From positions 1-64,000 of IMG/VR virus record IMGVR_UViG_3300022890_000014: 64,000 bases of DNA; one strand, given 5' to 3'. This document shows positions 5,201 to 51,816 of this stretch, piece by piece. Numbering within the stretch: position 1 is the first letter of the stretch; each line of letters begins with the position of its first letter. Made by a program: the position numbers and the translations under genes. The notes below the pieces were generated by a model. It was given only the letters and a program-made list of their open reading frames with translations. It ran no database searches and was not told the DNA's origin. This DNA comes from a virus.

Positions 5201-8200
5201 AGCGTGTTATCTGGCTCAGTTATCGTATTGATAATCCTTGTCTTGTCGTCAACACCAGGAGCCTTTGCGTAAGCCTTACGCGTGATACCAGTCATGTCTA
5301 GAAGCTGATCTTTCGAGTAAGATTCCAAATCTTCCATAACTGTGCCGTCAGCAGCAACATACTTCTTCCCAGTTACAACACTCTTGTATGTTGAGTCATT
5401 GATACCTGTTAGTTTCTTGATTGGATCTTTGAATAGTGGGTTGGGAAGTTCTTCTGGAAGAGCTATATGCGTCCATCTATCACCCTTGACCCCACCAGTC
5501 ATCTCTGGATCGAACAAACCGCCAACATGTTCTTTGAGACCCTTGCCTCTGAGCATTTTTGGATCAGTTATCTCTCCAGCACTCTGACTAAGAACATCTT
5601 TGTCTCTGATTGGCTCAGTAGAGATCATACTTCCGTTCTTGGTCATGTTGACACCAGCACCGCGAAGCATGGCATCAAACTTGTTCCATGTAAACGGAAC
5701 TTGAGGAGGAGGTGTTTGTTGACCTAGTTGTATTGCTCTCCAGAACTCATCAGATTGCTCTGCCTTATGAGTAGCCATCTCTCTAAGATTATGATTAGCA
5801 CCATGAGATAACATAGACCATGTTGACAGTGGATCGAGAGCTTTAGATCCAGTCTTGCCACCAGTTACAGGTTGTTTGTTTAGGTCATAGCCTTCACCTG
5901 GTTGTCTAGCAGAAAATCCAGATTCCCCAGTCTTAACAAGCTTCATCATGTATTGCTTGCCAGTTGTTATCTCACCCATAGACTTGCCAGTCTCAGGATC
6001 AAATAGCTCTTCGGTCTGCTTCAAGCCTGCATCTTTAAGGAGCTTCATGACGCCAGCATGGTTATCAGAAGGCTTAAAGTTTTCGACCATAATAGGCTTG
6101 CCGCCCTGCTTGTCTGCGACTTTGCCTGTTAAGGTCTCAAGTATCTGAGATGGATTCGTTCTTCCTATTACACCCATTGGGTTGAGGATAACTTCGACTG
6201 CTTCGCCGTTTTTGAACTGAGGCATCTTTGAATCAGGAACTATGGCAGAAATGACGCCTTTATTTCCGTGGCGACCTGAGTTTCCAGACCAGTGACATTT
6301 TCCATTTCTTCTTGTATATAGTATATGGTTTTTTTCTAGCCTAACGCAATAAATCTCATCTTCATAGTATACATACGATTCTTTTTGCCCACTCTGATTC
6401 TTTGAATGTCCATGATTTATTGTGGGGTTATTTTTGAATCTATATACGTATACGTTAAAGCAATCTTTCCATCCATTTTCATACACGGTCTTTTTTATAT
6501 TACTTGCCATGCCAATATGCAAGGTTAGTCTTTGAAAGTCGTCAGCTAATTGCTTAGATGTAGTGCAATATGAATGACCAGTAGATGTCTCAGATCCATC
6601 TCCCCACATCATCCATCTGTATAGAATTTTCAGATATTTTTTATCTAAAGAGAATATCCAGTTTGGTATAAATTTTTGATCGCATAGTCCGAACTGAGAG
6701 AAATACTCTTGAAGTTGGCGTCCGTAAAATATATACCTGGTGTCATTAGAGCATGGAGTCATGCCCCAGAAATCCAATTCTTCTTCAAATAGGATTCTTG
6801 TATGAGGTTTAACTTGGTGTATTACTATCCCGAAGTTTCCCCTTTTTTCATCTTTAAAACAATTTCCTTCTGCAAGATATGCTCCTAGAATGAACATGAA
6901 TTGCTCCATCTCCATATCTATACTTGGCAGTCTACGTGTTCCGTTTTCGCTCTGTCCTGCCCTAACAGTAATGTCTTCATCTATTGAGAAGTAGTCTATG
7001 TCTTCACCAACCCAATTAGAGGCGTTATTTTGAAGTCTATACCTCTTTCCCTTGAGTTGATATGCCTCAGTAAGAGAGTGGTTTTTCGCCCCTCTTCTTT
7101 TTGCAAATACACTATGATTCTCAGTAACAGACATCGACACTTGAGTTGTCTCAACTCTATACATATTTCCAGCATGAGGATAAGCATATGCCTTGTCTAC
7201 AGGTACATACTCAAGGGTGTCTGTTTCTGCATGAAGTGACGCAACTCTATCCTTGGTTGTTACATCAGCTACGTTTTTCCAGCCACCTATGGTTAGAATT
7301 TCATGCTCTTTGTCAAAACAAAGTTTGTCGCCTACCTCAAGTTGCTTAGTTACCTTGATTTGTACCTTGTATTGTCTTGTGTTCTCAACAACATCCATAA
7401 CCTCACCAGGAGATTCATACTCCCATTTTATAGATGCATCCTTCTGAGGCTTTACTAATCCTCTACCAAGCTTCTTCAGAATTCTATCTTCACTAGTATC
7501 TTCAGATAAACGCATGGCTGCGAAGATTGGATCTCCGTAATTGAGAATTTGTCCTTTCTTCACAACACCATTAGCACTAAGCTTTGCAGACTGAGCATTA
7601 GTAATAGAGCCAGGAAATGCTGCCCCATACTTATCTCTGTCATAAATAAAATCGTCACCCTTTGGTGATTTCTCTTCTATCATTTGCTGATGGGTCATCT
7701 TTTTCTGGTAGCCTTCGCTAACCTTGATCCCATCTTCCATTGTGCTACCATCACCAGCCATGTAAGCAACGCTAGTGTTGAGACCTAATGCAAGTACTCC
7801 ATTTTTGGTAAAGTTTAGATCTCCAATGAGACCATTCTTCTCAACCTTGTCTCCAACTTCAACATTAGGAGTGTGATGAAAGAACGACTTTTCATTGAGC
7901 TTGAAGTTATTGTACAGCGGTACTGTTTTGATTCCATCTTTACCGGATATATCAACAGAGTCTTTACCAACTCTTTTTACTATACCTTTTATTGGTGATG
8001 TAGCAGAGAAAGCTCTACCTACTGAACTCTCTACAGTTTCTCCGCTACCAAAGGATGACTGAACAAGTGGAACTTCTGGTTTTAGAACAGGAGTTGTTTG
8101 CTCTGTATGCTTTGATGCAAGAAACGCCCTTCCTCCTGACATAGAATCTAGGAAAGGTACTTGTGCTGTAGCAAACGTAAACACGGACTGCTCAGAAGGT

Positions 8201-9883: not shown

Positions 9884-9894
9884 TCCCTAGCTAT

Positions 9895-11230: not shown

Positions 11231-11653
11231 CTATTGGACCCCGTATCCTGCTACAGCAGGAGCAGCTAAGACGCCACCGACCATTGCAGCTATACCCTTG
11301 CCACTTTGCAGTTTTTGTATTGCACTAAATGGAACTTTCCCTGACTCAACTAGTGAAACAAGCTCCTTGGCAGGATTAGATGACTTTAATCCATACTCTT
11401 TAATAGCCCTGCCTAAAGCTGGCACAGATATAGCACCAGCCGCAGCACCTCCAGCCATTCCAGTAAGGCCACCAGCAACCAAGCCTTTCTTGAATCCTTT
11501 CCAGCCTTGCCCTTTGTCAGCAACTAAAGCACCAGTTGCCCCACCAATGCCACCACCGAGAAGACCGCCAGCAACCGCACTGCCAGCTATGGCACGACCA
11601 GCAAACCCAGTCTTTGTCATACCTTGATATATTCCTTCATATATTTCATCCAT
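11231..11653 (-). CDS. Leader-bearing glycine-zipper protein
   Basis: 140 aa. The N-terminus (MDEIYEGIYQGMTKTG) carries the shared leader found on eight proteins of this window. The rest is dominated by hydrophobic Gly/Ala segments with GxxxG repeats (about residues 20-48, 58-80 and 118-136), predicting membrane-inserting helices. The RBS GGAGAT 7 nt upstream fixes the start. A promoter-like element lies about 35 nt upstream. A virion internal or membrane-penetrating role is plausible but not shown. Confidence 0.7.
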   Translation of the reverse strand: MDEIYEGIYQGMTKTGFAGRAIAGSAVAGGLLGGGIGGATGALVADKGQGWKGFKKGLVAGGLTGMAGGAAAGAISVPALGRAIKEYGLKSSNPAKELVSLVESGKVPFSAIQKLQSGKGIAAMVGGVLAAPAVAGYGVQ

Positions 11654-11685
11654 AGATAGATCTCCATAGTTGTATTAAAATAAAA

Positions 11686-11706
11686 CATTGATATAATTAT
11701 ACCACA
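11686..11706 (-). promoter_or_regulatory. Extended -10 promoter
   Basis: - strand TGTGGTATAATTATATC: a perfect extended -10 (TGGTATAAT) upstream of the gene starting at 11653. The dispersed palindrome lies just upstream at 11717. Confidence 0.6.
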
Positions 11707-11716
11707 CGATAGTTGC

Positions 11717-11733
11717 TGCGTAAGGCTTACGCA
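11717..11733. repeat. Dispersed palindrome, copy 8
   Basis: Perfect 17-nt copy, central G on +, between two divergent promoter-like elements. Confidence 0.95.
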
Positions 11734-11746
11734 GAGCAATACTAAG

Positions 11747-11766
11747 TGGGTATAAGACTGATAGAG
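11747..11766 (+). promoter_or_regulatory. Phage promoter, GGTATAAG-N5-TAGAG class
   Basis: GTGGGTATAAG then TAGAG after five bases, 36 nt upstream of the 50-aa gene at 11802. Confidence 0.6.
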
Positions 11767-11801
11767 AAGATAAACTTATTTTTTATACAGGAGATAGTAA
11801 A

Positions 11802-11954
11802 ATGGGAAATCTAGTGATAATAGCAACCGCATTCATGCGTGGAAGTTTCAAGGAAGGTGTCGAAGTGACTATTACTGTAATGGAAAGAGGGAAGTGGGGT
11901 AAATACACAGAGAGGGTGAATAAGCTTGGAAGGAGGCTTAGCGCCTTACTATAG
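11802..11954 (+). CDS. Small hypothetical protein (50 aa)
   Basis: A complete 50-codon frame with a strong RBS (AGGAGAT, 7 nt spacing) behind a + strand promoter-like element. The product is basic, with a hydrophobic start and a Lys/Arg-rich C-terminus (RVNKLGRRLSALL). Its 3' end overlaps the end of the convergent gene at 11938 by 17 nt. It is isolated within a long - strand block, which suggests an independently regulated early gene. No family recognised. Confidence 0.65.
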   Translation: MGNLVIIATAFMRGSFKEGVEVTITVMERGKWGKYTERVNKLGRRLSALL

Positions 11955-12846
11955 CTTTGAAAATACCCTTGGCTATGTCTCCGAGACCTTTTGCCCGATG
12001 CAATCCTTTGCCTGCCATTTCTTGAGCAGCACTGGGCGACGAGGACATAAGACCCTCAAGTAGCGTAGCCGCTTCACGTTCACCTATTCCGTGGGTATTT
12101 TTTAGAACTTGCAGTGCTTTGTTCTTTATACCTTTTCCGAATGACTTAGACGTTCTGAACTCTTTATTATTAATTAAGTGTCCAGAGTCTATTGTTGGCA
12201 TAGCTATATGTCCAGATCCAGATATAGCCATAGGTTTTAATGACGCAGGGGCTTTTTCTGCCATCCTTGCTACAGTATTAGCTTTTCCATCTATAGCTCC
12301 AGCAAGTGCCTGCTGGTGTGCTAATAAAGCTCTTTCCTGATGAGGAATTATATCTTGAAGGGTATGTGATGTTTCACCTATATGACCAAGAGCTTGTGTG
12401 TATAGTCTCTGTTGTGCTTTTGGAGCTTTTTCTATAGCTGCTCTTGCCAAAAGGTCTGCTGCATTAGTCCTTCCAGCTTTCATGACATCTCTTATTCCTT
12501 CTTTGGTTCCAGGGAATGCATGTCTTTTCTGTGCAATAGGACTGAGCGGATTCCTTGAGACTCCATCTAGAACATTTGTACCTAAAGATGACACTCCTCC
12601 TAGTATATTAGAGCCAAGCCTGTTCATTTTTCCTGGCTTCGCTGCAAGGCTCTGTGATTTCTCGTACAGTACACCACTTCCTTTTCGTCCGTCTGCTATA
12701 TCAGCACCGTACTCAGTTAGTATATTTCTACCTCTATTTGAAACTCCTAGGCCATCTGAAACACTTTGCATTAATCCAGTGTGACCTTCTTTGCCATAAG
12801 CAGTCTTTGTCATGCCGTATAAAATCCCAGCGTATAAATCATTCAT
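11938..12846 (-). CDS. Leader-bearing hypothetical virion-type protein
   Basis: 302 aa from the ATG at 12846, chosen because it starts the shared leader (MNDLYAGILYGMTKTA); a TTG 15 bases upstream extends the frame but overlaps the previous gene. The remainder is Ala/Gly/Lys-rich and mostly helical, with no recognised enzymatic motif. It sits in a tight run of leader-bearing genes next to the portal. A head-internal or ejected protein is a reasonable guess from context alone. Confidence 0.7.
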   Translation of the reverse strand: MNDLYAGILYGMTKTAYGKEGHTGLMQSVSDGLGVSNRGRNILTEYGADIADGRKGSGVLYEKSQSLAAKPGKMNRLGSNILGGVSSLGTNVLDGVSRNPLSPIAQKRHAFPGTKEGIRDVMKAGRTNAADLLARAAIEKAPKAQQRLYTQALGHIGETSHTLQDIIPHQERALLAHQQALAGAIDGKANTVARMAEKAPASLKPMAISGSGHIAMPTIDSGHLINNKEFRTSKSFGKGIKNKALQVLKNTHGIGEREAATLLEGLMSSSPSAAQEMAGKGLHRAKGLGDIAKGIFKAIVRR

Positions 12847-12850
12847 GTCA

Positions 12851-13336
12851 TTAAACACCAATCATTATATCTGCCATATCCTGAACAGAACCTTTGTTTT
12901 TAAATCGTGGGTCGGCATCCATTCTGTCTAGTCTTTCGGAGATATAGCTGTCAGGTCTAGAATTCATTTCTCCTAGCCTTCCAACTTCTCTGTCTGCCAT
13001 GTTACCACCCATATGTCTGCCGCCAAGTGCTCCACCGAGAGTGCCGAGAGCGCCTCCTATAGCCATCGGAAGTCCGTGTCCACCTTTCATCTTGAACAAG
13101 TTCTTAGCCAAGCCACCAACTCCAGCACCAAGAATACCACCACCAACCCCACCAAGACCAGTGCTAACAGCGCGTGTACGTCTCTTGAATTCCTCTGGAT
13201 CTATATCCCCATAGTAGTCTCGTAGCTCTCCGACTCTATCCTCAGTCGGACTATTGCTACCACCTGGAAGTACATGGAATGGGAAGTCAGAGGCAGATTT
13301 TGTCATTCCTATGTATATACCTTCGTATACACTCAT
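12851..13336 (-). CDS. Leader-bearing glycine-zipper protein
   Basis: 161 aa with the leader MSVYEGIYIGMTKSA. A charged stretch is followed by two Gly-rich hydrophobic segments (about residues 57-78 and 88-112, GLGGVGGGILGAGVGG and similar) and a polar C-terminus with an Arg/Asp-rich tail. The dispersed palindrome ends a few bases before the RBS (AAAGGAT). It probably belongs to the same functional class as the other glycine-zipper leader proteins. Confidence 0.7.
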   Translation of the reverse strand: MSVYEGIYIGMTKSASDFPFHVLPGGSNSPTEDRVGELRDYYGDIDPEEFKRRTRAVSTGLGGVGGGILGAGVGGLAKNLFKMKGGHGLPMAIGGALGTLGGALGGRHMGGNMADREVGRLGEMNSRPDSYISERLDRMDADPRFKNKGSVQDMADIMIGV

Positions 13337-13347
13337 AATACATCCTT

Positions 13348-13364
13348 TGCGTAAGGCTTACGCA
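13348..13364. repeat. Dispersed palindrome, copy 9
   Basis: Perfect 17-nt copy, central G on +; its last bases overlap the end of the helicase gene and it directly precedes the RBS of the gene starting at 13336. Confidence 0.95.
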
Positions 13365-14872
13365 CTTGAAGATACAACGTTTCTCATGTCTCTATTGAGT
13401 CTATTCTTCTCTTCTGAAATACCATTTACCCATTCATCTATTCCTACTTCTTTCCCAGCTATAAATTCTAACAACCCATTTCTAGACTTAGGTTCTGAGT
13501 AATAATTTTTAACTATAAGCTTTCTATCTTCTTCTTTTCGGTTACTTTGACCACCGAGTCTTCTTCCTCTAGCAATAGCTTGATTATTCCTCTCTGGATT
13601 ATAGTGCCTATCCATAGTCATAAACATTGTGGTATCAGGAAGATTAACACCCTCTCCTCCTGCTGGAGTAAGAAGTATAACTTTATCTTTACCGCTATTG
13701 AATCTCTTTACAGCTTCATCTCTATTTTCTTTTGTAGCCCCAAGAGATCCATGACCAGCAAAGATTCCATGATTAATACCCCTATCTTTTAGTCCAGCAT
13801 CCAGAACGTCAGCACCACCTCTGACAAAATTGGTATGAATTGCAACCTGTCCGTCCGGTGTCTTGCCTAGATATTCTTCAAGATCATCTAGCATCTTAGA
13901 TACTTTAGGGGTTTCTTTGGCTCCCTCAGTAAGATCTACATCGCTGTAGAATGGTTCTATAGAATTTGATGCTTGACGAGCCTGTGTAATTATAGAGAAT
14001 ATATGTGAAGCTTCTTTTTGATTGACAGGAAGTCCGTTTCTTATCTTTCTTCTAGTTACTGGATCTAGTCTGCCAAGAGCAAAACTGTATGCTTTGCTTT
14101 GCTTTTTGCTCATTGGAACATACACATTCTCTTCTTCAAGTGCTGGCATTCCACCACCCATATCAGAATGAGTTACATAGTGTATCTTTCCTTTTATCTT
14201 ATCAGCCAAAACCGATTCATTTTTAAGCTTAACTTTTGATACATTTGGTTTCAAGAAACCACTGCTCCTAACTTCTCTTTTTGTGTGCTTCTTCCCGAAT
14301 GTACTTTGACTTCCGAAAGAATGCTCTGGAGAAACTATATCTAAAAGTGGAACTATATCTCTTGGGTGATTTGATATGAATGATCCAGTAACACCAATAA
14401 CATTGTCTACGTTTTCAGATGCATACCTCATAGACTTATTGGTTACAGACTGTGGATCTTTAGCTCTGTGTATTTCGTCTACAATAAGTGTATCAAACTC
14501 ATTGTCTGTCATAACAGATTCTGGATCTCTTCTAAACATTTCCATTGACATCAGACTGTAATCTTTATTCTCACCAACATCACCATAGGTACTATTGGTG
14601 AATTTCTTTATACCATTGTCTCTGAAATTAGTAAGAAGGGATGCAGGCATCAATACTAGTGCTTTCTTAGCTTTCTTCTGCTTTTTAAGCTCTTCAAATC
14701 CAGCTATAGAAGATAACGTCTTCCCTGTTCCTGTATCATGAGCTAGTAAGGCTCTTCCGTTATTCTCTAATATAAAGTCAAGAGCATCCTTCTGGTGTTC
14801 TTTTAACTCTATTGAAGACTTTAGTTTCGATGTCTTTGTCATTCCAGCGAGTATTCCTTGATAAATACTCAT
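13358..14872 (-). CDS. SNF2-like superfamily 2 helicase/ATPase with leader
   Basis: 504 aa. After the shared leader (MSIYQGILAGMTKTS) comes a compact SNF2/DEAD-type ATPase: a Q-like LKEHQKDAL segment, Walker A (AHDTGTGKT, residues 44-52), DEIH at 132-135, a GVTGSF motif III-like element, and a C-terminal lobe with an arginine-finger motif (AIARGRRLGGQ). Such enzymes translocate on duplex DNA or remodel nucleoprotein. Finding one in the portal/structural block with the same leader as presumed virion proteins suggests it may be packaged and act on DNA early after entry (inference). The palindrome precedes its RBS. Confidence 0.88.
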   Translation of the reverse strand: MSIYQGILAGMTKTSKLKSSIELKEHQKDALDFILENNGRALLAHDTGTGKTLSSIAGFEELKKQKKAKKALVLMPASLLTNFRDNGIKKFTNSTYGDVGENKDYSLMSMEMFRRDPESVMTDNEFDTLIVDEIHRAKDPQSVTNKSMRYASENVDNVIGVTGSFISNHPRDIVPLLDIVSPEHSFGSQSTFGKKHTKREVRSSGFLKPNVSKVKLKNESVLADKIKGKIHYVTHSDMGGGMPALEEENVYVPMSKKQSKAYSFALGRLDPVTRRKIRNGLPVNQKEASHIFSIITQARQASNSIEPFYSDVDLTEGAKETPKVSKMLDDLEEYLGKTPDGQVAIHTNFVRGGADVLDAGLKDRGINHGIFAGHGSLGATKENRDEAVKRFNSGKDKVILLTPAGGEGVNLPDTTMFMTMDRHYNPERNNQAIARGRRLGGQSNRKEEDRKLIVKNYYSEPKSRNGLLEFIAGKEVGIDEWVNGISEEKNRLNRDMRNVVSSSA

Positions 14873-14883
14873 GATATATCCTT

Positions 14884-14900
14884 TGCGTAAGGCTTACGCA
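14884..14900. repeat. Dispersed palindrome, copy 10
   Basis: Perfect 17-nt copy, central G on +, immediately upstream of the helicase RBS. A second, shortened copy follows at 14912. Confidence 0.95.
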
Positions 14901-14911
14901 TCCATCTGAAT

Positions 14912-14926
14912 ACGTAAGCCTTACGG
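14912..14926. repeat. Truncated palindrome copy
   Basis: CGTAAGCCTTACG core (13 bp) is intact but the outer bases have diverged; it lies 11 nt from copy 10, in the gap after the portal gene. Confidence 0.8.
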
Positions 14927-14933
14927 TTACTAA

Positions 14934-16877
14934 CTAAGCATTCATGCCTTGTCTTGTTGCTTGTCTTTGCTCTGGAAGTGGAGACATATCAATTCCTTGC
15001 TGCTGAGGCATACCAACTTGCTGCTCTTGTGCGCTTATCGGCATTCCGTTCTGAGCTTGGGACTGCATTACTCCAGGATCAACACCCATAGCACCTGGGG
15101 TCATTCCTGGTTGCATTCCACCAGAGATTTCGTCCATTCTTAGTTCAATGAGTCTTACTAAGTTCGGACTTCTATCTCTAAGAATCTCAAGCATTTGCAT
15201 GCCAATTTCTTGACCCGATCTTCTAATGGTTCTGATGACGGAAGAAACCATATCATCGACGTTAGGATCTCTGTTCCCTTGTCGCCTCATGGCATACTCA
15301 AGGCTTGTCTTGGCCTTACTGTAAATAGCGTCCTTGGTAGAGTTCTCAATCTGAACTTGCATTGCATGCTGTGCGCTACCTTGATACTTAGCACCTAGCA
15401 CCATTTGACGGCCACTTATCTTAGCTTCGACTTCCATAGCCTTTTCTTTATACTTGGAACGAGCTTCTTCTTCAAGTGCTCTCTGCTTCATTTCAGTTTC
15501 CCAGTTCCATCCCCATTGATGTAAGAGGGCCTTAGCAGATAACATTCCCATTCCGTATAGCTGTATAGCTATTTGTTTCTGTTGTGGATCATCAGCCATC
15601 TTGAAGTCGGAGAACTTCACTTCTACAACTGGTATACCAAGATAAGGAGATAGTCTATCCATTACCCATCGAATCATATCTATTACTTGGTCTCTCCAGT
15701 TAAGGAAAGCATTCTCAAGCATTCTAAGACTAACGGAACTACCAGACCAGTTAAGGCCACCAAATACAAACTCAATCGGCGCACCCATTCCACCAGCGAT
15801 CTCTTTCTGTGCCTGATCGATCTCAGGAGTTAACAGAAGTGCTTTTGCATCTCCACCAACTCTCTGAACACCAAGAGGGCTGGACATAATAGCCTTGTGG
15901 TTTATGTCATTTCTATGTCTCTTTAGCTGCTCTGCTACATCACTTCTCCAACTCTTCAGCCCTATTTGCTTAATAGGATTGAATGTAGAAGTTGCCTGCG
16001 GATAGAATATGTCAAGAGGATTAGCTCTATCAACAGCTATAGCTTCTTGGGATTTGTTAAGAATTGTAGCGTAGTGTATCTTTTTATACACAGCCATTGG
16101 AACTGGCTTGCCCCAAGCCTCATCACCATCAGAAAGTCCCATAGTCTTCATGTGGTACATATTGTCATTGTCTATAACAACGAACCTATGCTTCTTCATG
16201 GCCTCTATGTATATGACTGGGATGCCTGCTATCTGATGCTTGTAGCCTTGGTTTATCTTACTTCTATACGAGTCAGGAACTCTATAGAAATATCTTGTCT
16301 TCTCTGGCATTTCTTTAGAGAATGATATAAATACATCCTCTACATCCCAAGAAAGAAGACTGACTCTCTCTCGATCATTAACTGCCATATCGACTGCTGT
16401 ATGTACGTGTCTTGTGTCACATTTATCACAGAAGCAGTAGAAGTTAGGATATTTGAAATCCCAATATGATGCCTGATCTTCCCATGTCTCATTGAAACAC
16501 GATGAGCATATAAACTTTCTTCGTGTTGGGAATCTTACAGACATAAGATGGTTTCCCATAGCGAAGTTGTTTAGTCCAGCATGTATACTGTACGACTTTA
16601 TTTTTAGGTTATCTTCCAGTATCCTTTTCCATGTCTTGCATAGCTTCTGGTTCTTGTCGCTAAACATGATGTCTGTAATAGCATACTGGGAGAACTTTCT
16701 TATAATAGCGGATACGATACTATGCCCGTAAAAAAACCTTTTAGCAGTAGAGAACAGTTCTCTTGCGCTTTGTGGGTGATATGTCGAGGCAATATCCAGA
16801 TAAGGATTTGAATATTTTATGTACGGATTATTTGAAGTACCCGTAAAAGAACCTGCTGTGGTTGTTATTGCAGACAT
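14934..16877 (-). CDS. Portal protein
   Basis: 647 aa. The central region has features of phage portals: a helical stem/wing region with NRANPLDIFYPQ and GGMGAPIEFVFGG-like segments, a long helix-rich C-terminal domain and a Gln/Met/Pro-rich tail. Portals form the dodecameric ring at one vertex through which DNA is packaged and ejected. An unusual insertion around residues 120-160 carries two CxxC pairs (CSSC and CDKC), which could bind zinc. It lies in the middle of the leader-bearing gene block; terminase and capsid genes must be outside this window. Confidence 0.8.
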   Translation of the reverse strand: MSAITTTAGSFTGTSNNPYIKYSNPYLDIASTYHPQSARELFSTAKRFFYGHSIVSAIIRKFSQYAITDIMFSDKNQKLCKTWKRILEDNLKIKSYSIHAGLNNFAMGNHLMSVRFPTRRKFICSSCFNETWEDQASYWDFKYPNFYCFCDKCDTRHVHTAVDMAVNDRERVSLLSWDVEDVFISFSKEMPEKTRYFYRVPDSYRSKINQGYKHQIAGIPVIYIEAMKKHRFVVIDNDNMYHMKTMGLSDGDEAWGKPVPMAVYKKIHYATILNKSQEAIAVDRANPLDIFYPQATSTFNPIKQIGLKSWRSDVAEQLKRHRNDINHKAIMSSPLGVQRVGGDAKALLLTPEIDQAQKEIAGGMGAPIEFVFGGLNWSGSSVSLRMLENAFLNWRDQVIDMIRWVMDRLSPYLGIPVVEVKFSDFKMADDPQQKQIAIQLYGMGMLSAKALLHQWGWNWETEMKQRALEEEARSKYKEKAMEVEAKISGRQMVLGAKYQGSAQHAMQVQIENSTKDAIYSKAKTSLEYAMRRQGNRDPNVDDMVSSVIRTIRRSGQEIGMQMLEILRDRSPNLVRLIELRMDEISGGMQPGMTPGAMGVDPGVMQSQAQNGMPISAQEQQVGMPQQQGIDMSPLPEQRQATRQGMNA

Positions 16878-16891
16878 GTATAAATCCTAAA

Positions 16892-16908
16892 TGCGTAAGG
16901 CTTACGCA
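16892..16908. repeat. Dispersed palindrome, copy 11
   Basis: Perfect 17-nt copy, central G on +, overlapping the last codons of the gene at 16902 and preceding the portal RBS. Confidence 0.95.
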
Positions 16909-17600
16909 GTAAATAGTCCTATGTTTCTGACCTGCCTCAGTCCCTTTAGAACTCTGTTCTTACACCACAGCTTACCGGCTTCCATCTTCAAGACTTGGGT
17001 AGACACAGCATCAGTGCTAGGTAGATCTAATATTTCCTGCTTCTTCTCTTCGTTGTTCCAAGCTTCTAAAACTTTCCTGTTAAGTTCAACAGCGTTGGAG
17101 TCAGAGGGTGAAAGCTCAATCATTTTATCATTTATCATGTGACCATTCAAGTTGTCCCCTACAGGACAAGCAACGAAACCCTGATCTATAAGGCAACATG
17201 CTATGTAAGTAATCACTTGCTCACTTATCCCGACTCCGATGCTCTCTGCAATATTATAAATATCCTCGAAGACATTCAGGGTGTACCATATCTCACCTAG
17301 GCTAGGTTTCTGCAATACGCCAAAGTCGTGAGCTATTCCAGCAAACGCCTGAGTTGTATCACCGAATATGTCTGCCTCAACCCAGGGAACAAAATGAGTA
17401 TCTTCCTCTAGTGCCTGATTCATACAGGCGGCAGTAGCGAAGATAGCACTCCATCTGTTGTCTGGAAGTGGCTCACCTATTTCTTGTCGGAATGTTTCAG
17501 GCTCCCACTCATACCACTTGCCTTCAAGATACTTATTGAACAGAGCTTTTATATAGATAGGAGTTGGATCTGATATAGACATTATCTCTTGTACGCTCAT
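16902..17600 (-). CDS. Hypothetical portal-adjacent protein
   Basis: 232 aa, acidic, mostly alpha-helical by composition, with no signal peptide or recognised domain. It overlaps the upstream gene by an ATGA junction and is followed directly by the portal gene, so a role in head assembly or the connector region is likely by position only. Cysteines are scattered and do not form a metal motif. Confidence 0.65.
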   Translation of the reverse strand: MSVQEIMSISDPTPIYIKALFNKYLEGKWYEWEPETFRQEIGEPLPDNRWSAIFATAACMNQALEEDTHFVPWVEADIFGDTTQAFAGIAHDFGVLQKPSLGEIWYTLNVFEDIYNIAESIGVGISEQVITYIACCLIDQGFVACPVGDNLNGHMINDKMIELSPSDSNAVELNRKVLEAWNNEEKKQEILDLPSTDAVSTQVLKMEAGKLWCKNRVLKGLRQVRNIGLFTA

Positions 17601-18601
17601 GTTACATCTAATCCTGCGACTGGGGTTGTTTGGTTTGATTTCAGGAAGTCAATAGGTCTAAGGTATTTTCTAGCCTTACCTTTTCTGAAGTCTAGCTTAT
17701 CGTATACAAAACCAAGAATACCTGTGCATATTGAAGACTTAGGTTTTTTTACTATTTCTTCTCTAATTCCACCACCACCAAGAGCGGCAAGATATAAGTT
17801 TCTATCAGAATAAGGAATACCCACAAGAGTTTTTGCTGTATTAACAGCCTTCTCTCTTTCTTTCTGTTTCACATCTGGCCTAACAGCGAGCATATCTTTA
17901 TTTAGCTTTGCCATGCTGTTTACCGAATGTATCCTGACCTTCTTTTTGCTGCCAGGTACATACTGTCCAAATGACTTTATTCCCTCGTAGGAATGAAGCA
18001 TCTTTCCTTCGCCAACATAGATGCCAGCGTGGGTCCATTTTGAGCCAGTAGTTATCTTACTAAGTGTATTCCAGATCTTTTCGCCTACACCAGCCTTACT
18101 CTCATTAGCACTAGTGAGAATTATGTCACCTGGCTCTAAGTGTTCAAGAAACTTCTTTGTTTTCTTCTCTACAGTTAGATCCATATCTCTTAGTTCTGCA
18201 AGACTGGCAGTCTTTTGCGACTCTTTCCAGTGAGGCTCAAGCACTACGTTTGCCCAGTCACCTCTGAATGGAACAGCCCTATCATCTATATAGTGGTCTG
18301 CTATTACTTTTCCTGAAGAGTTAGGAGGCTGGTCTGGACTTTCGTTTATGTAATCATACGGAAGGTCGTGAGCCTCCATATATCTAGCCATACCTTCTTT
18401 ATCGCCTCTCACAGAGAAGACTATGATTCTATAGCCTTGTGCCCGTAGGCTATCTAAGCCTTCTTTTGCACCTTCAGTAAGAGGTCCGTATCCACCTTCA
18501 CCAGGATTTATCTGTATGGTATCATCAAAGTCAACAGCAACGGTCTTTTGCCGTGCCGCAGTCTTGGTCATGCCAAGGAAGATTCCATCATAGATGCTCA
18601 T
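17597..18601 (-). CDS. Leader-bearing HAD phosphatase fused to a papain-like amidase domain
   Basis: 334 aa in three parts. The leader MSIYDGIFLGMTKTA is followed by a HAD-type domain with the DxDxT motif (D24-F-D26-D-T28) and IDDRAVPF; small phage HAD domains of this type often act as 5'-nucleotidases or polynucleotide phosphatases. From about residue 135 there is a permuted NlpC/P60 (YiiX-like) domain with GDIIL, a likely catalytic His in THAGIYVG and a Cys in SSICTGIL. In the family the permuted fold cleaves amide or acyl bonds. The pairing of a nucleotide phosphatase and a possible cell-wall or lipid hydrolase in one leader-bearing chain is unusual. Confidence 0.8.
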   Translation of the reverse strand: MSIYDGIFLGMTKTAARQKTVAVDFDDTIQINPGEGGYGPLTEGAKEGLDSLRAQGYRIIVFSVRGDKEGMARYMEAHDLPYDYINESPDQPPNSSGKVIADHYIDDRAVPFRGDWANVVLEPHWKESQKTASLAELRDMDLTVEKKTKKFLEHLEPGDIILTSANESKAGVGEKIWNTLSKITTGSKWTHAGIYVGEGKMLHSYEGIKSFGQYVPGSKKKVRIHSVNSMAKLNKDMLAVRPDVKQKEREKAVNTAKTLVGIPYSDRNLYLAALGGGGIREEIVKKPKSSICTGILGFVYDKLDFRKGKARKYLRPIDFLKSNQTTPVAGLDVT

Positions 18602-18611
18602 GATATGCTTC

Positions 18612-19076
18612 CTAGTCTGATAAAAGTTTGTATAGTCCGACGCCAGTTAGCCCAGCCATTCCAGCTAGACCGATGTTTCTGGCTATGTTTTTGGATCTAG
18701 TCAATTTTGCCATGTCGTCTGTTAGATTCTCAGCTAAAAGCTTTGCTTCCATAGCTTCGTTTGCAGCAACACCAGGAGCGCCAGTTGCATATAATTGAAT
18801 CGGATTTCTTTTCTTCAACTGGTCACTAAATATACCCTTGGCTTTTTCTCCAAGATTCATAATCTTGTCATCGCTTCCTACTATTGCTCTATCTAGGGAT
18901 TTTCCTAATTGACCTTGCCTTCCTGCGTCATAAGACCAGCCACCAAGTCCAGCGCCAGCGGTTACAGCAGATGCTAATCCCAGTAGGTTCTCTGGTAAGT
19001 CTTCAGCAGGAGGAAGATTATTAACTATGTTAGCAGTCTTGGTCATGCCAAGGAAGATACCTGTATATATGTTCAT
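18612..19076 (-). CDS. Leader-bearing hypothetical membrane-type protein
   Basis: 154 aa with the leader MNIYTGIFLGMTKTA. The DNA of the leader is nearly identical to that of the gene at 17597, pointing to a recent duplication of the 5' end. A Gly/Ala-rich hydrophobic segment lies around residues 30-50, and another at the C-terminus (NIGLAGMAGLTGVGLYKLL). Its ATG overlaps the stop of the Nudix gene (ATGA). No function recognised. Confidence 0.68.
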   Translation of the reverse strand: MNIYTGIFLGMTKTANIVNNLPPAEDLPENLLGLASAVTAGAGLGGWSYDAGRQGQLGKSLDRAIVGSDDKIMNLGEKAKGIFSDQLKKRNPIQLYATGAPGVAANEAMEAKLLAENLTDDMAKLTRSKNIARNIGLAGMAGLTGVGLYKLLSD

Positions 19077-19591
19077 TTTATTTTTTCCTTTAGATTTCTT
19101 AGTGCTTCGGACTCAAGCATACTAAGGTCAGAGAACTCACCACCAGACTTACCATATCGCTCTTGTCTTTTTATTGCTGTATCGATATTGATCCATTTTC
19201 CGTTCTTGAACTGATCTCCTTCGACACCAAAAAGGGAGTCATCTTTTTTATCGAATCTTCCTGCCCTAAAATACTGCTTATTGCCAGTAAAGTTTCTTCC
19301 CTTTTTCTTTGCTTTAGCTATCATTTCTTTAGACCACCTAATGTTTGAGGAGTCCACTCCGACTCCGTGGACATCTTTTAGTCTAAGTCCTGCCTCTTCT
19401 AATACTTCCATTCTAGCAGCTTGATTTATAGAGTTGTTGTTATCAACTCCACCGCCAGGGAATCTAAGTGTGTCTCTGTAGGGGCTTTCCTCTGCAAAGA
19501 CCTGTCCTTTATCATTGTACACAAAAACACCAACTCTTCTGCGAAGCTTGGCAGATTTTGTCATGCCAAGAAAGATGCCTTGATAAATCAT
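19073..19591 (-). CDS. Leader-bearing Nudix hydrolase-like protein
   Basis: 172 aa: leader MIYQGIFLGMTKSA, then a Nudix fold with GVFVYNDKGQVFAEE and a Nudix box at about residues 46-69. The core EVLEEAGL is kept, but the usual Arg before the first Glu is Met, and the Glu five residues after the glycine is replaced by Asn/Ser. Active Nudix enzymes hydrolyse nucleoside diphosphate derivatives; the substitutions make activity uncertain. The gene is part of the leader-bearing operon next to the portal. Confidence 0.82.
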   Translation of the reverse strand: MIYQGIFLGMTKSAKLRRRVGVFVYNDKGQVFAEESPYRDTLRFPGGGVDNNNSINQAARMEVLEEAGLRLKDVHGVGVDSSNIRWSKEMIAKAKKKGRNFTGNKQYFRAGRFDKKDDSLFGVEGDQFKNGKWINIDTAIKRQERYGKSGGEFSDLSMLESEALRNLKEKIK

Positions 19592-19603
19592 ATCTTTTCC
19601 TTA

Positions 19604-48699: not shown

Positions 48700-48713
48700 G
48701 CGTAAGCCTTACG
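48699..48713. repeat. Dispersed palindrome, copy 29 (at a start codon)
   Basis: 15-nt copy with one outer base changed. On the - strand it reads CGTAAGGCTTACGC directly before ATG, so its AAGG sits at a usable Shine-Dalgarno distance. Confidence 0.88.
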
Positions 48714-48740
48714 TGTAGTGTTATCTAAAAAATATATAGA

Positions 48741-48753
48741 TATTGTACCACAT
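48741..48753 (-). promoter_or_regulatory. Extended -10 promoter
   Basis: - strand ATGTGGTACAATA: TGGTACAAT extended -10, with a weak TTTACT at -35 distance. It would drive the baseplate operon from 48699. Confidence 0.55.
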
Positions 48754-48786
48754 GTATCTTACTTAGTAAAAGGAGGGGTGTGTGTG

Positions 48787-49671
48787 TTAGTATATCTTCA
48801 TTCTATTTGCGCATCTTATGTTTAGTATGGATTTATGATTTGGATTAACACCTGGCCTTGGGTGTCTCTCATCTTCTTCAGGGGGAACACCGAGCATTTC
48901 GTTGTAAAACATAGATTCATTATGTAAAGAAGGAAGTTTACCAGATGCATGCGCATCTATTGATAACTTGTAGTGAGGTTTTGGATACGGATCTATATAA
49001 GAAATATCCTCCCATGCTTTCCAGCACAAAAGGTCTTTATCATTATCAGCACCTTTTATAAACAGAGACTCCTCTCTTTTGCCAAGTCTCCACCAATCAT
49101 TAATAAAGAATTCTTTTACAGGATCTTTCTTTCTTAATGATTTAGCCAACATTTCTTTTACTTCGTCGCCAGTGTATCCCCAAGGAACACCTATGCCGAA
49201 CTTGTTGCCTATTGATATAGTGTCTATAAGTGGCGAGCCTTTCCATGCCTGCATGCCCATAGACTTAGTTTCAGTTGAAGTTTTAAATCTAAGAACCTGA
49301 ACCATTAACTCTCTGTGGGATTCATTTAGTTTTTCACTACTAACTAGACCGAGACTATGCATTGACACCATGCTTGCGTAGTTAAGTGTGGTAGTGGTTA
49401 AGTTTTGCATCCTTGCAATGTCTGCATCTGAATGATTAGTCTTGCAAATCTTATCTAGCCACACACTACTGGAGTTGCGCTCACCACCCTCGAAATATTC
49501 AAACTCGCTTCCGTTAATCATTTCTTTTTTCTTAGAATTTTCCACTTTGCTACCTATGAAGTTAGACATAGTTTCTTGTTCTCTAACTACCTGGCTTTCA
49601 TATTTCTCTCGGTTTTCAGGATTAAAGAAGTATGTTGTGCTTGCGTAAGGCTTACGCATTCCATCAGACAT
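48787..49671 (-). CDS. Hypothetical protein
   Basis: 294 aa with a strong RBS (AGGAG, 6 nt). The palindrome lies inside the gene at codons 5-10 and is read as MRKPYA. The rest is mixed alpha/beta, rich in Glu/Lys and Trp, with no recognised motif. It sits between the tRNA-like genes and the baseplate operon. No function can be given. Confidence 0.65.
   Translation of the reverse strand: MSDGMRKPYASTTYFFNPENREKYESQVVREQETMSNFIGSKVENSKKKEMINGSEFEYFEGGERNSSSVWLDKICKTNHSDADIARMQNLTTTTLNYASMVSMHSLGLVSSEKLNESHRELMVQVLRFKTSTETKSMGMQAWKGSPLIDTISIGNKFGIGVPWGYTGDEVKEMLAKSLRKKDPVKEFFINDWWRLGKREESLFIKGADNDKDLLCWKAWEDISYIDPYPKPHYKLSIDAHASGKLPSLHNESMFYNEMLGVPPEEDERHPRPGVNPNHKSILNIRCANRMKIY
49642..49658. 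repeat. Dispersed palindrome, copy 30 (inside a gene start)
   Basis: Perfect 17-nt copy, central G on +, read as MRKPYA near the N-terminus of the 294-aa protein. Confidence 0.95.
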
Positions 49672-49682
49672 GTGTTTCTCCT

Positions 49683-49760
49683 AAAAAAAAGCAAGTATGA
49701 CGAACCAAGAAGACTCACGTTGTGTTCATCCGCGTACTGGGTGAGGTTATATCATACTTA
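49683..49760 (-). terminator. Structured 3' end/terminator of the tRNA unit
   Basis: On the - strand AAGTATGA pairs with TCATACTT (8 bp) around an inner CTCAC/GTGAG stem, and the 3' arm is followed by GC and eight T. This looks like the end of the transcript that carries the tRNA-like genes; its shape is more elaborate than a simple terminator and could be a small RNA domain. Confidence 0.55.
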
Positions 49761-49768
49761 CTTAGGTG

Positions 49769-49854
49769 TGGTAAGGGCAGGATTTGAACCTGCATCTCCA
49801 TGCACTGGGACTTTGCAAGTACCGTATGGCGCATAACCATTATGCTACCCTTCC
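49769..49854 (-). tRNA. tRNA-like gene, anticodon arm noncanonical (possible Cys GCA)
   Basis: Acceptor GGAAGGG pairs with CCTTACC (one mismatch), U8-A9, a D-arm GCAT/ATGC with GG in the loop, and a perfect T-arm GCAGG-TTCAAAT-CCTGC. The anticodon arm is odd: 32 nt between the D- and T-arms, with CCAT/ATGG closing a second hairpin whose loop TTGCAAA is a good tRNA-Cys anticodon loop. No encoded CCA. A real but unusual tRNA, or a tRNA-like element. Confidence 0.55.
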
Positions 49855-49857
49855 AAA

Positions 49858-49937
49858 CTATAGCCTCGCCGGACTTGAACCAGTATCTCCCTCCCAATGG
49901 AGGGCGCATGAACCAGAATCATGCTGTATAGCTATAG
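49858..49937 (-). tRNA. tRNA-like gene, anticodon unclear
   Basis: CTATAGC/GCTATAG can form a perfect 7-bp acceptor, with extra bases next to it; a GCATGA/TCATGC arm stands at the D position, a CCCTC/GAGGG stem with a 6-nt loop (CATTGG) at the anticodon position, and TTCAAGT in a T-arm (ACTGG/CCGGC, one mismatch). A 6-nt loop does not give a standard anticodon; a UGG (Pro) reading is possible only with a poorer stem. No encoded CCA. Confidence 0.45.
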
Positions 49938-49944
49938 TGAGATT

Positions 49945-50725
49945 TATTCAATACGTCCTCGACAACTGCTTTGTTTGTCGGTACTAGTATCTATTGCCAG
50001 TAAAAAAACTTAGCAAGATGTAAGCAAACATCCCACATCATAGATTCTTTATTGGCATGGCAGAATCTCACAACTGCCGCATATTTAAAAAGAACCAAGA
50101 AAGGCGAGGTGAATCCTCACTTGGTTCTTAATCCAACTATCGCTAGCTGGTTGAAGAAAGAAAAGTTAACATATCCTGGCAAAAGTGTAGATGTCACTCA
50201 AACTTTACATCTACATAAAGCGTAACTTCAGAATGAAGCCAGAACTTTAGATATGTCAACTAGATGTGTTCAGTTCTTTGCGTCGATTCTCTATTTTGTG
50301 TGTCCGGCAGTATGGTTATAAACTAGTTCTTTCTTTACAAAGAGCCTTACTTATGATCATTTTCTGCCCCAACCTGTGTACTAACCACTCCTATGGTCAA
50401 TCGACTATTCCATTGAAAATGCTCTGGCCCCTGGTTTGTATCAAAAAGGTTATTTCTCAACGTTTCTGCCGAGTTAATCTTTTGGTGCCAGGTTCGCCAG
50501 GTTTTCAACCAGGATAGCTTAGTTCTGCTGAATCTGACCAGGATGGTTTGCCAGATCTGCGCTCGCGAGTCGAACTTTAGACCTGACATTCTTCCTGGTT
50601 TCTTACCTACACTTGCTAGAGACCGTCCTCCTATACGTTCGTATCGCAAACGCTTCAAGCGGAGAAAAAGACAATAAAGTCTTCAGTGGCAATTAACCCA
50701 CTGAGGTAGCCAAGAAACTGAAACT
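49945..50725 (-). ncRNA. Candidate large structured non-coding RNA
   Basis: About 780 nt with no credible gene but many stems: AGAACCAAG/CTTGGTTCT (50091-50128, 9 bp with an inner GAGG/CCTC), TGTAGATGT/ACATCTACA (50186-50215, 9 bp), CGACAA/TTGTCG (49960-49980), GATGT/ACATC (50017-50032), GGCAG/CTGCC (50059-50078), TCAGTGG/CCACTGA and AAGAC/GTCTT near 50680-50704, ATACG/CGTAT near 50633. A - strand promoter-like element sits at its 5' end and tRNA-like genes follow. This matches the setting of GOLLD/ROOL-type phage RNAs; sequence membership is untested. Confidence 0.5.
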
Positions 50726-50743
50726 ATATACACTATAACACAT
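50724..50743 (-). promoter_or_regulatory. Extended -10 promoter of the RNA unit
   Basis: - strand TGTGTTATAGTGTATATAG: TG-T-TATAGT followed by TATAG start region, closely similar to the RNAP gene promoter. It points into the gene-less, hairpin-rich region and the tRNA-like genes. Confidence 0.6.
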
Positions 50744-50772
50744 CATCTATATATCTTGTACCCTTTTTTTTA

Positions 50773-51333
50773 TTATTGTTCACTCATGTTTTTTGAGAAG
50801 CAGTCAAGGCACATGGCTTCGTACTCTCCTTTTCCTCCTAGAACTATATCGCCTTTGTCTTCTGGGTTTTTCCTAAAGCTTCTTGTGGCATCCGAGTTAC
50901 ATCTTGTGCATACAGCAGTGAGCTTAACAATCTTGTCTGCTACAGCGAATACATCTGATGAAGTCTCAAATGGTTTTCCGTCGCTCTTCAGGTCTAACAT
51001 CGAGACGTAGACGTTAGAGCCTGTTCTTGATAGCCATACGAGAACTTCTGACAGATTGGGTATGAACTGGGCTTCATCTATGAATACATCCTTTATGCCA
51101 TACTTCATGGAGCCAAATATATCATAGATTCCCTCTGCCTTATCCACAAGTCTAGCCAGAACCTCCTCTCCATTATGCGAGATAATCTTCTCTGGATCAT
51201 ATCTGCGATCTATCCTAGGTTTGATAACTAGCACGGTCCTGTTGCCACGAACCGATCTTCTGTACGCAGATAGTAGATGTGTGGTTTTCTCTGAGAACAT
51301 AGGTCCGGTGAACACAGTTATCTTTCCTGACAT
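50773..51333 (-). CDS. tdk: Thymidine kinase (type II) with altered P-loop
   Basis: 186 aa from the ATG at 51333 (GAGAGGA upstream; the longer frame begins inside the palindrome as MRKPYA). Type II TK features are present: a P-loop region GPMFSEKTTHL at 10-20, the DEAQF lid/Walker B at 86-90, an LDLKSDGKPF lasso-type segment and a four-Cys zinc knuckle (CTRC ... CLDC). TKs phosphorylate thymidine with ATP for dTTP supply. The invariant P-loop Gly before Lys is Glu here (GPMFSGKT becomes GPMFSEKT), a likely one-base change that may abolish or alter ATP binding. Confidence 0.9.
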   Translation of the reverse strand: MSGKITVFTGPMFSEKTTHLLSAYRRSVRGNRTVLVIKPRIDRRYDPEKIISHNGEEVLARLVDKAEGIYDIFGSMKYGIKDVFIDEAQFIPNLSEVLVWLSRTGSNVYVSMLDLKSDGKPFETSSDVFAVADKIVKLTAVCTRCNSDATRSFRKNPEDKGDIVLGGKGEYEAMCLDCFSKNMSEQ

Positions 51334-51345
51334 AAGAATCCTCTC

Positions 51346-51362
51346 TGCGTAAGGCTTACGCA
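51346..51362. repeat. Dispersed palindrome, copy 31
   Basis: Perfect 17-nt copy, central G on +, between the TK promoter-like element and its RBS. Confidence 0.95.
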
Positions 51363-51387
51363 TGGCTTGTTTCAGGTGAGTAATTCA

Positions 51388-51400
51388 CAGTATAGTAACA
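51388..51400 (-). promoter_or_regulatory. Extended -10 promoter for thymidine kinase
   Basis: - strand TGTTACTATACTG: TG-T-TACTAT. It diverges from the + strand element 7 nt away. Confidence 0.45.
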
Positions 51401-51406
51401 CGTATA

Positions 51407-51426
51407 TGGGTATAAAATTAATAGAG
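51407..51426 (+). promoter_or_regulatory. Phage promoter, GGTATAAA-N5-TAGAG class
   Basis: GGGTATAAA then TAGAG after five bases, preceding the small gene at 51501 by about 75 nt. Confidence 0.58.
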
Positions 51427-51500
51427 GAAGAACTAGTCCATCTCCTCTACTAATTATTCTGGACTAAACAATAACAAGTCATATATCAGAGGTGAATATT

Positions 51501-51785
51501 ATGGGCGACAAGTCAAACAAACCGATTAGAAGCACAAGACATGTTTGTAAAGTAAATATACACGGTGCTGAGATACACACGATGGTCGGAATGACTGGAA
51601 AGAAATCAGTTCTTTTGGTGGATAAAGAATATAGTGGGGGTGTTATCGAATTCGCAATAACATGGCTGAGAGATCGGAAGAGACGCGGTAAGCCAATAAT
51701 CGGATTGTGTATAGAGTGTCTGCAAGGTTCGTCATGTGGAAGAGTGACAGTGGAAGACAACGGAGACCTAACCGTGAAGTTCTAG
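51501..51785 (+). CDS. Small hypothetical protein (94 aa)
   Basis: 94 aa from the ATG at 51501 (GAGGTGA 6 nt upstream; a GTG nine bases earlier is less likely). Basic and hydrophobic segments alternate; a CIECLQGSSC stretch has three Cys but no clear metal pattern. The gene is an isolated + strand unit with its own promoter-like element and a clean intrinsic terminator, typical of an early phage gene. No family recognised. Confidence 0.72.
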   Translation: MGDKSNKPIRSTRHVCKVNIHGAEIHTMVGMTGKKSVLLVDKEYSGGVIEFAITWLRDRKRRGKPIIGLCIECLQGSSCGRVTVEDNGDLTVKF

Positions 51786-51794
51786 GTTGTCGGG

Positions 51795-51816
51795 AGTCGC
51801 AACATGCGACTTTTTT
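51795..51816 (+). terminator. Intrinsic terminator
   Basis: AGTCGC-AACAT-GCGACT hairpin followed by a T run, 10 nt after the stop of the 94-aa gene; it touches the end of the convergent sigma-like gene. Confidence 0.88.

Follow-up and report, generated by a model that had tools for sequence, protein, structure and literature searches.

The large ornate RNA GOLLD is found in phages and prophages, often next to tRNAs or containing them, and ROOL, another large ornate phage RNA, is located near tRNA islands (PMC12286853). The two are unrelated in sequence, yet both are linked to tRNAs and both form RNA cages; their function is unknown (PMC12286853). Comparable RNAs that belong to no named family have also been reported. 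The most abundant transcript of ICP1 is a non-coding RNA of ~800 nt encoded in a gap devoid of ORFs, which its authors compare with GOLLD and ROOL without assigning it to a family (PMC7567579). In phage K, two long non-coding RNAs have been likened to GOLLD and ROOL by their location relative to tRNA genes, again with no family assigned (PMC9241854).

The locus described here belongs to a phage of ~150 kb that carries a fused RpoB–RpoC polymerase. The window, that is, the whole stretch of DNA analysed, represents the first 64 kb (positions 1 to 64,000) of the 150,744-bp virus record IMGVR_UViG_3300022890_000014 of IMG/VR. Between a thymidine kinase gene and an orphan gene, both on the minus strand, it contains ~1.1 kb without a convincing gene. 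The part of this region running from 50725 to 49942 is probably a large structural RNA, similar to GOLLD and ROOL in layout and not in sequence. Its start was placed from a -10 element and its 3' end was set at the first of two tRNA-like elements. The features of the locus, from upstream to downstream, are as follows:

50773 to 51363, minus strand: thymidine kinase (TK) gene, directly upstream of the RNA (phrog_592, E 6e-33), member of a putatively inserted block
50732 to 50744, minus strand: promoter-like extended -10 element GATGTGTTATAGT, just upstream of the RNA
49942 to 50725, minus strand: candidate large structured non-coding RNA of ~784 nt, with no coding signal, a fold z-score of ~-4.7 and no Rfam family
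49857 to 49938, minus strand: tRNA-like element 1, a cloverleaf by folding only, with an acceptor-like stem and a 6-bp D-like arm
49769 to 49854, minus strand: tRNA-like element 2, scoring 47 bits with RF00005 (gathering score 29), with canonical D and T arms
49683 to 49763, minus strand: 13-bp hairpin (arms 49763–49751/49701–49689, p 0.97) enclosing a long, structured loop; T8 follows, and the hairpin probably terminates the whole unit
48787 to 49671, minus strand: orphan gene of 294 aa, directly downstream, member of the same block

The orphan gene matches nothing in Pfam or PHROG and has no viral relative. An earlier note on this DNA, made from its letters, had described the stretch as free of plausible genes, and codon statistics bear this out. 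When codon usage is modelled from the long ORFs of the phage itself, genes mostly score from about +0.1 to +0.4 bit per codon, and spurious ORFs that lie inside genes have scores centred on about -0.1; the frames of the stretch score from -0.35 to -0.03 bit per codon, like spurious frames. A second scan, based on a codon score of this type, placed 49681–50568 among the genome's three longest gaps of low coding score. That the stretch encodes a short unusual protein is nevertheless conceivable, as the longest frame (50658 to 50347, minus strand) stays open over 103 codons, when the chance expectation in the stretch is ~0.1–0.2 by our own estimate. However, this frame scores -0.11 bit per codon, within the spurious range, its only start codon is TTG, and none of the three longest ORFs matches a PHROG; the codon scores and the lack of a protein family make this explanation extremely unlikely. 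An apparent 2.6-kb noncoding region at 121–123.6 kb was dropped from consideration; a later scan lists no gap there, and the region seems to be a gene split at the border of a sequence piece.

The extended -10 element that had been noticed upstream of the stretch is indeed present at 50744–50732. The exact 13-mer GATGTGTTATANT has three copies in the 150,744-bp genome, at 50744 (minus), 9885 (minus) and 141903 (plus), and none in five Markov genomes. The copy at 9885 lies 24 bases upstream of the fused RpoBC polymerase gene and that at 141903 is upstream of another ORF. Recurrence of this promoter-like element speaks for the candidate RNA, as do the tRNA-like neighbours and the T8 hairpin on the same strand. 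The 3' hairpin with T8 of the earlier note proved to be real.

Other features recur in this phage. A copy of the promoter-like element with one mismatch is located at the start of a 1-kb low-coding gap (73604–74630 of the genome; z ~-2.9), which might represent an origin or a further RNA. Another recurring element, GCGTAAGGCTTACGC, is palindrome-like and 15 bp long, with 7-bp arms and one central base, and is present in 73 copies in 150.7 kb, about one per 2 kb; the window holds 35 of them against 0 expected (for example at 418, 13349, 49643, 51347 and 62406). Copies lie both between and within coding sequences, frequently immediately ahead of a gene start, and a 17-bp version occurs in only three other IMG/VR stretches, once in each. 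Many proteins encoded on the minus strand at 11231–19600 of the window share the N-terminus MSIYxGIxxGMTKTA or close variants of it, perhaps a sorting or cleavage signal.

The predicted structure of the candidate RNA is complex, with high pair probabilities computed from a single sequence. Mean pair probabilities of helices of at least 4 pairs mostly exceed 0.85. The main structural units, from 5' to 3', are:

50269 to 50722, minus strand: domain I, multibranched, closed by a 7-bp helix (50722–50716/50275–50269), with many inner helices at p 0.9–1.0
50480 to 50625, minus strand: domain I core, including an extended arm composed of ACCAGGA/TCCTGGT, TGTCAGGTCT/AGATCTGGCA and GTTCG/CGAGC, with arm helices at p 0.96–1.00; basis of the covariance model R2
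50165 to 50260, minus strand: domain II, a 12-bp outer helix (p 0.96) around two hairpins; the 9-bp hairpin TGTAGATGT/ACATCTACA has p 0.96
50087 to 50129, minus strand: 10-bp hairpin (p 0.94) running into a T run (TTTTT at 50091), which may act as an intrinsic terminator and so yield a form of ~640 nt
49995 to 50057, minus strand: domain IV, nested helices of 5, 7 and 9 bp (p 0.94–0.95)

The helix closing domain I is long-range, pairing nt 4–10 with nt 451–457 (p 0.79 in the 784-nt RNA and 0.61 in the full transcript). At least eight stems, two of them of 9 bp, had been claimed from inspection of the letters, and the computed fold surpasses this count: it contains a stem of 12–13 bp (50261–50249/50176–50164), one of 10 bp (50129–50120/50099–50090), a stacked stem of 10+5 bp (50588–50579/50558–50549 and 50575–50571/50565–50561) and three of 9 bp. 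Most of the listed stems of 9–13 bp have p >0.9.

On the minus strand, 49942–50735 folds at -237.9 kcal/mol, compared with -201.0 +/- 7.8 kcal/mol for 100 dinucleotide shuffles (z -4.7), and the two halves of the stretch reach z -5.4 and -4.65, the latter for 50262–50735. As a genome yardstick, 54 random windows of 794 nt average z ~-1.4, and one of the 54 folds lower than the RNA (z -6.1, with only 16 shuffles behind it). Over the whole stretch the excess is about equally strong on the plus strand. The minus strand is favoured because the domain I core (z -3.1 versus +0.24 on the plus strand) and domain II (-4.16 versus -2.92) both score lower on it. Folding energy alone is weak evidence, and no evidence of function. 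By the same shuffle measure, two GOLLD RNAs of related phages reach only z -1.7 and -0.95; therefore an ornate RNA can be neither recognised nor dismissed by its z-score. Elsewhere in the genome, the region of a 163-aa ORF (133740–134310) consists mostly of long hairpins, with z -9.7 to -13 on both strands and a terminator-like hairpin at its end; the ORF has no Pfam or PHROG match. It may be regarded as a second structured-RNA candidate, stronger by predicted fold than the RNA at 49942–50725.

Part of this architecture could be expected of a long structured leader or spacer of a tRNA-like operon, which would have no function of its own, its hairpins tuning termination (at the 50091 T run) and tRNA processing before the RNA is degraded. 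A terminator-like hairpin does lie within the stretch, which shares its strand with the tRNA-like genes, and one promoter-like element precedes them all. However, a leader of 780 nt would be very long, the long-range domain I and the nested domain II are needless for such a role, and the tRNA-like genes themselves look unable, or are doubtful candidates, to decode. We consider a leader unlikely.

The doubt about decoding comes from the anticodon regions. The earlier note had counted two tRNA-like genes; this stands for element 2, recognised by the Rfam model, whereas element 1 qualifies by folding. Element 2 has 15 extra positions in the anticodon region relative to RF00005 and no standard anticodon arm. 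A Cys-type loop, UUGCAAA (anticodon GCA), can be drawn capping an extended anticodon arm, the cloverleaf so formed having -24.4 kcal/mol versus -28.9 for the minimum free energy structure; ARAGORN does not call this element. Element 1 carries a 6-bp arm with an AUUG tetraloop at the anticodon position, with no usable anticodon loop, and a 4-bp T arm with a T-loop-like UUCAAGU loop. It has no RF00005 match at E<=5 and is called neither by Rfam nor by ARAGORN. Decoding by either element is doubtful; their recognition by RNase P would be plausible. Rfam searches of the whole window, of the region with lax filters and of the rest of the genome yielded one tRNA only.

The suggestion that the stretch is a GOLLD or ROOL RNA did not survive the covariance-model search. 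The GOLLD model (RF02032) finds nothing at E<=10 across the whole genome, and searching the stretch itself with relaxed filters gives no match at E<=5 either. The ROOL model (RF03087) has none at E<=10 in the phage and none in 50 records of a distant clade, a negative that is weaker than that for GOLLD, being without a positive control. These records were found through the fused RNA polymerase (26–44% identity) and come from 49 distantly related phages and one bacterial MAG; the TK and RNA-model searches were run on them as well as those for GOLLD and ROOL. Among the 50 records the GOLLD model recovered two full-length GOLLDs (E 8.6e-40 and 7.0e-36, just below the Rfam cut-off), at G059:C1:53456-53853 and G033:C1:81652-82089, in phages related through the RNA polymerase; one of them has an embedded tRNA. 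These finds, with the agreement in length and tRNA link, would be compatible with a GOLLD RNA that has diverged past the Rfam model. However, GOLLDs below the cut-off were found full length at 1e-36 to 1e-40 by the very model that is silent here, and we judge such an origin highly unlikely. The broader reading as a large ornate non-coding RNA fares better, layout and promoter-like element fitting it in the tests run, without a match to either named family.

Among related phages, one has a Pistol ribozyme beside a tRNA (L029:1373-1438) and another a tmRNA gene (L025:1228-1501). The fused polymerase of the phage itself (2278–9861, 2527 aa) contains a LAGLIDADG-type intein-like insert at about residues 848–1190.

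Homologues of the stretch were sought in several ways. Blastn against phages, at E 1e-5 and at E 10, gave only short matches, all in the tRNA-like part, and the stretch resembles no phage record of the collection beyond these. BLAST and nhmmer against 1.7 Mb of retrieved loci found no homologue, nor did single-sequence covariance models (R2 and R3) run over the 50 relatives, although both recover their own source. Two DNA pattern scans followed by R2 were equally negative for the RNA; 70% matches to the pattern AAGTTCGACTCGCGA, in L263 and loci like it, were attributed to chance, and the one inspected sits in a coding frame. In ORF lists beside tRNAs in the earlier relatives, no comparable stretch was recognised by eye. 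No site in the phage genome stood out above chance as an antisense target of the RNA. The neighbouring proteins have no close relatives in IMG/VR, the baseplate protein having two at 24–25% identity. Across the phage records, the 50 relatives and the 1.7 Mb of loci, the stretch is an orphan at the level of sequence.

The block at 48700–51814 contains the orphan gene, the terminator, the two tRNA-like elements, the RNA, the thymidine kinase gene and a small ORF. Three phage records (L002, L003 and L275) share the order of sigma-like gene, baseplate J-like gene and neighbours, and in all three the site of the block is empty, the sigma-like gene overlapping or abutting the next (tail) gene. In L002 the sigma-like gene (5335–6030) overlaps the next gene (6023–6985); in L003 the overlap is between a frame ending at 5859 and the gene at 5849–6937; in L275 the sigma-like gene overlaps or abuts its neighbour at 17897. 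No relative of the TK is present in the 49 related phage records, the one match being in the bacterial MAG. Because the site is empty and the TK is absent in relatives, the block with TK, RNA and tRNA-like elements seems to have been gained by insertion in this lineage, unless the other phages have lost it. Direct repeats of 9 bases were not found at its borders.

The absence of the block from relatives and of any relative of the RNA, together with a tRNA-like element 1 lacking a usable anticodon loop, would also be expected of decayed sequence, the remnant of either a tRNA cluster or a formerly functional ornate RNA. Decay, however, should erode helices and promoter, and here helices of 9–13 bp have p >0.9 and the repeated promoter-like element is intact; moreover, the stretch holds no further tRNA match even at E 5. 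Decay therefore appears improbable.

Thus, we favour, with rather better than even confidence, the interpretation that 50725 to 49942 of the minus strand is an orphan, tRNA-linked, large structured phage non-coding RNA that works like GOLLD and ROOL. The stretch lacks a coding signal and has a strong predicted fold, with excess folding of the domain I core on the minus strand only and most helices at p >0.85; its promoter-like element recurs, its neighbours are tRNA-like, and its block, apparently lineage-specific, lies at a site empty in relatives. The related clade uses large ornate RNAs (GOLLD in 2 of the 50 records), and the unclassified RNAs of ICP1 (PMC7567579) and phage K (PMC9241854) are further arguments for it. 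Against it stand the lack of a homologue in our searches, the one random window that folds lower and the similar excess on the plus strand. A more specific proposal is possible, and we advance it tentatively: the stretch would represent a class of large ornate phage RNA that is new and has no sequence relationship with GOLLD or ROOL, and its two doubtfully decoding 3'-side tRNA-like elements would serve as processing signals or belong to the RNA itself.

The course that we infer for the transcription and processing of this RNA, and likewise for its abundance, assembly, function and exact ends, would be as follows. The extended -10 promoter, the same element as before the phage RNA polymerase gene, would start transcription, which would pass the multidomain RNA (domain I closed by the long-range 5'-end helix, domain II and separate hairpins), continue through the two tRNA-like elements and end at the T8 hairpin. 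An RNA of ~640–780 nt would be set free, either by RNase P cleavage at the 5' end of tRNA-like element 1 or because transcription stops at the T-run hairpin of 50091. By analogy with GOLLD and ROOL, which are abundant, tRNA-linked and possibly self-assembling, this RNA would most likely act structurally during infection.

In size, predicted fold, setting and promoter-like element the stretch fits the known kind of large phage RNA. As with GOLLD, which is phage-encoded, large and located beside or around tRNAs, ~784 nt adjoin here a second cloverleaf and a 47-bit tRNA; the length agrees, and GOLLD itself occurs in two distant relatives of this phage. It differs from GOLLD in having no model match, the conserved GOLLD 3' core not being recognised in the present stretch. 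The setting is also that of ROOL, a large phage RNA with a tRNA nearby, from which it differs by the absent model match at E<=10. Unlike the candidate described here, the RNAs of ICP1 and phage K are backed by RNA-seq, and ICP1, in contrast to the present phage, has no tRNAs; both nevertheless are large unclassified phage non-coding RNAs and as such are precedents for it. The RNA is located in a block with a thymidine kinase gene, and the empty site of relatives allows the two states to be compared. If a further RNA unrelated in sequence to GOLLD and ROOL occurs in the same setting, in a clade that partly carries GOLLD, this would point to repeated acquisition of such RNAs by phages for one job.
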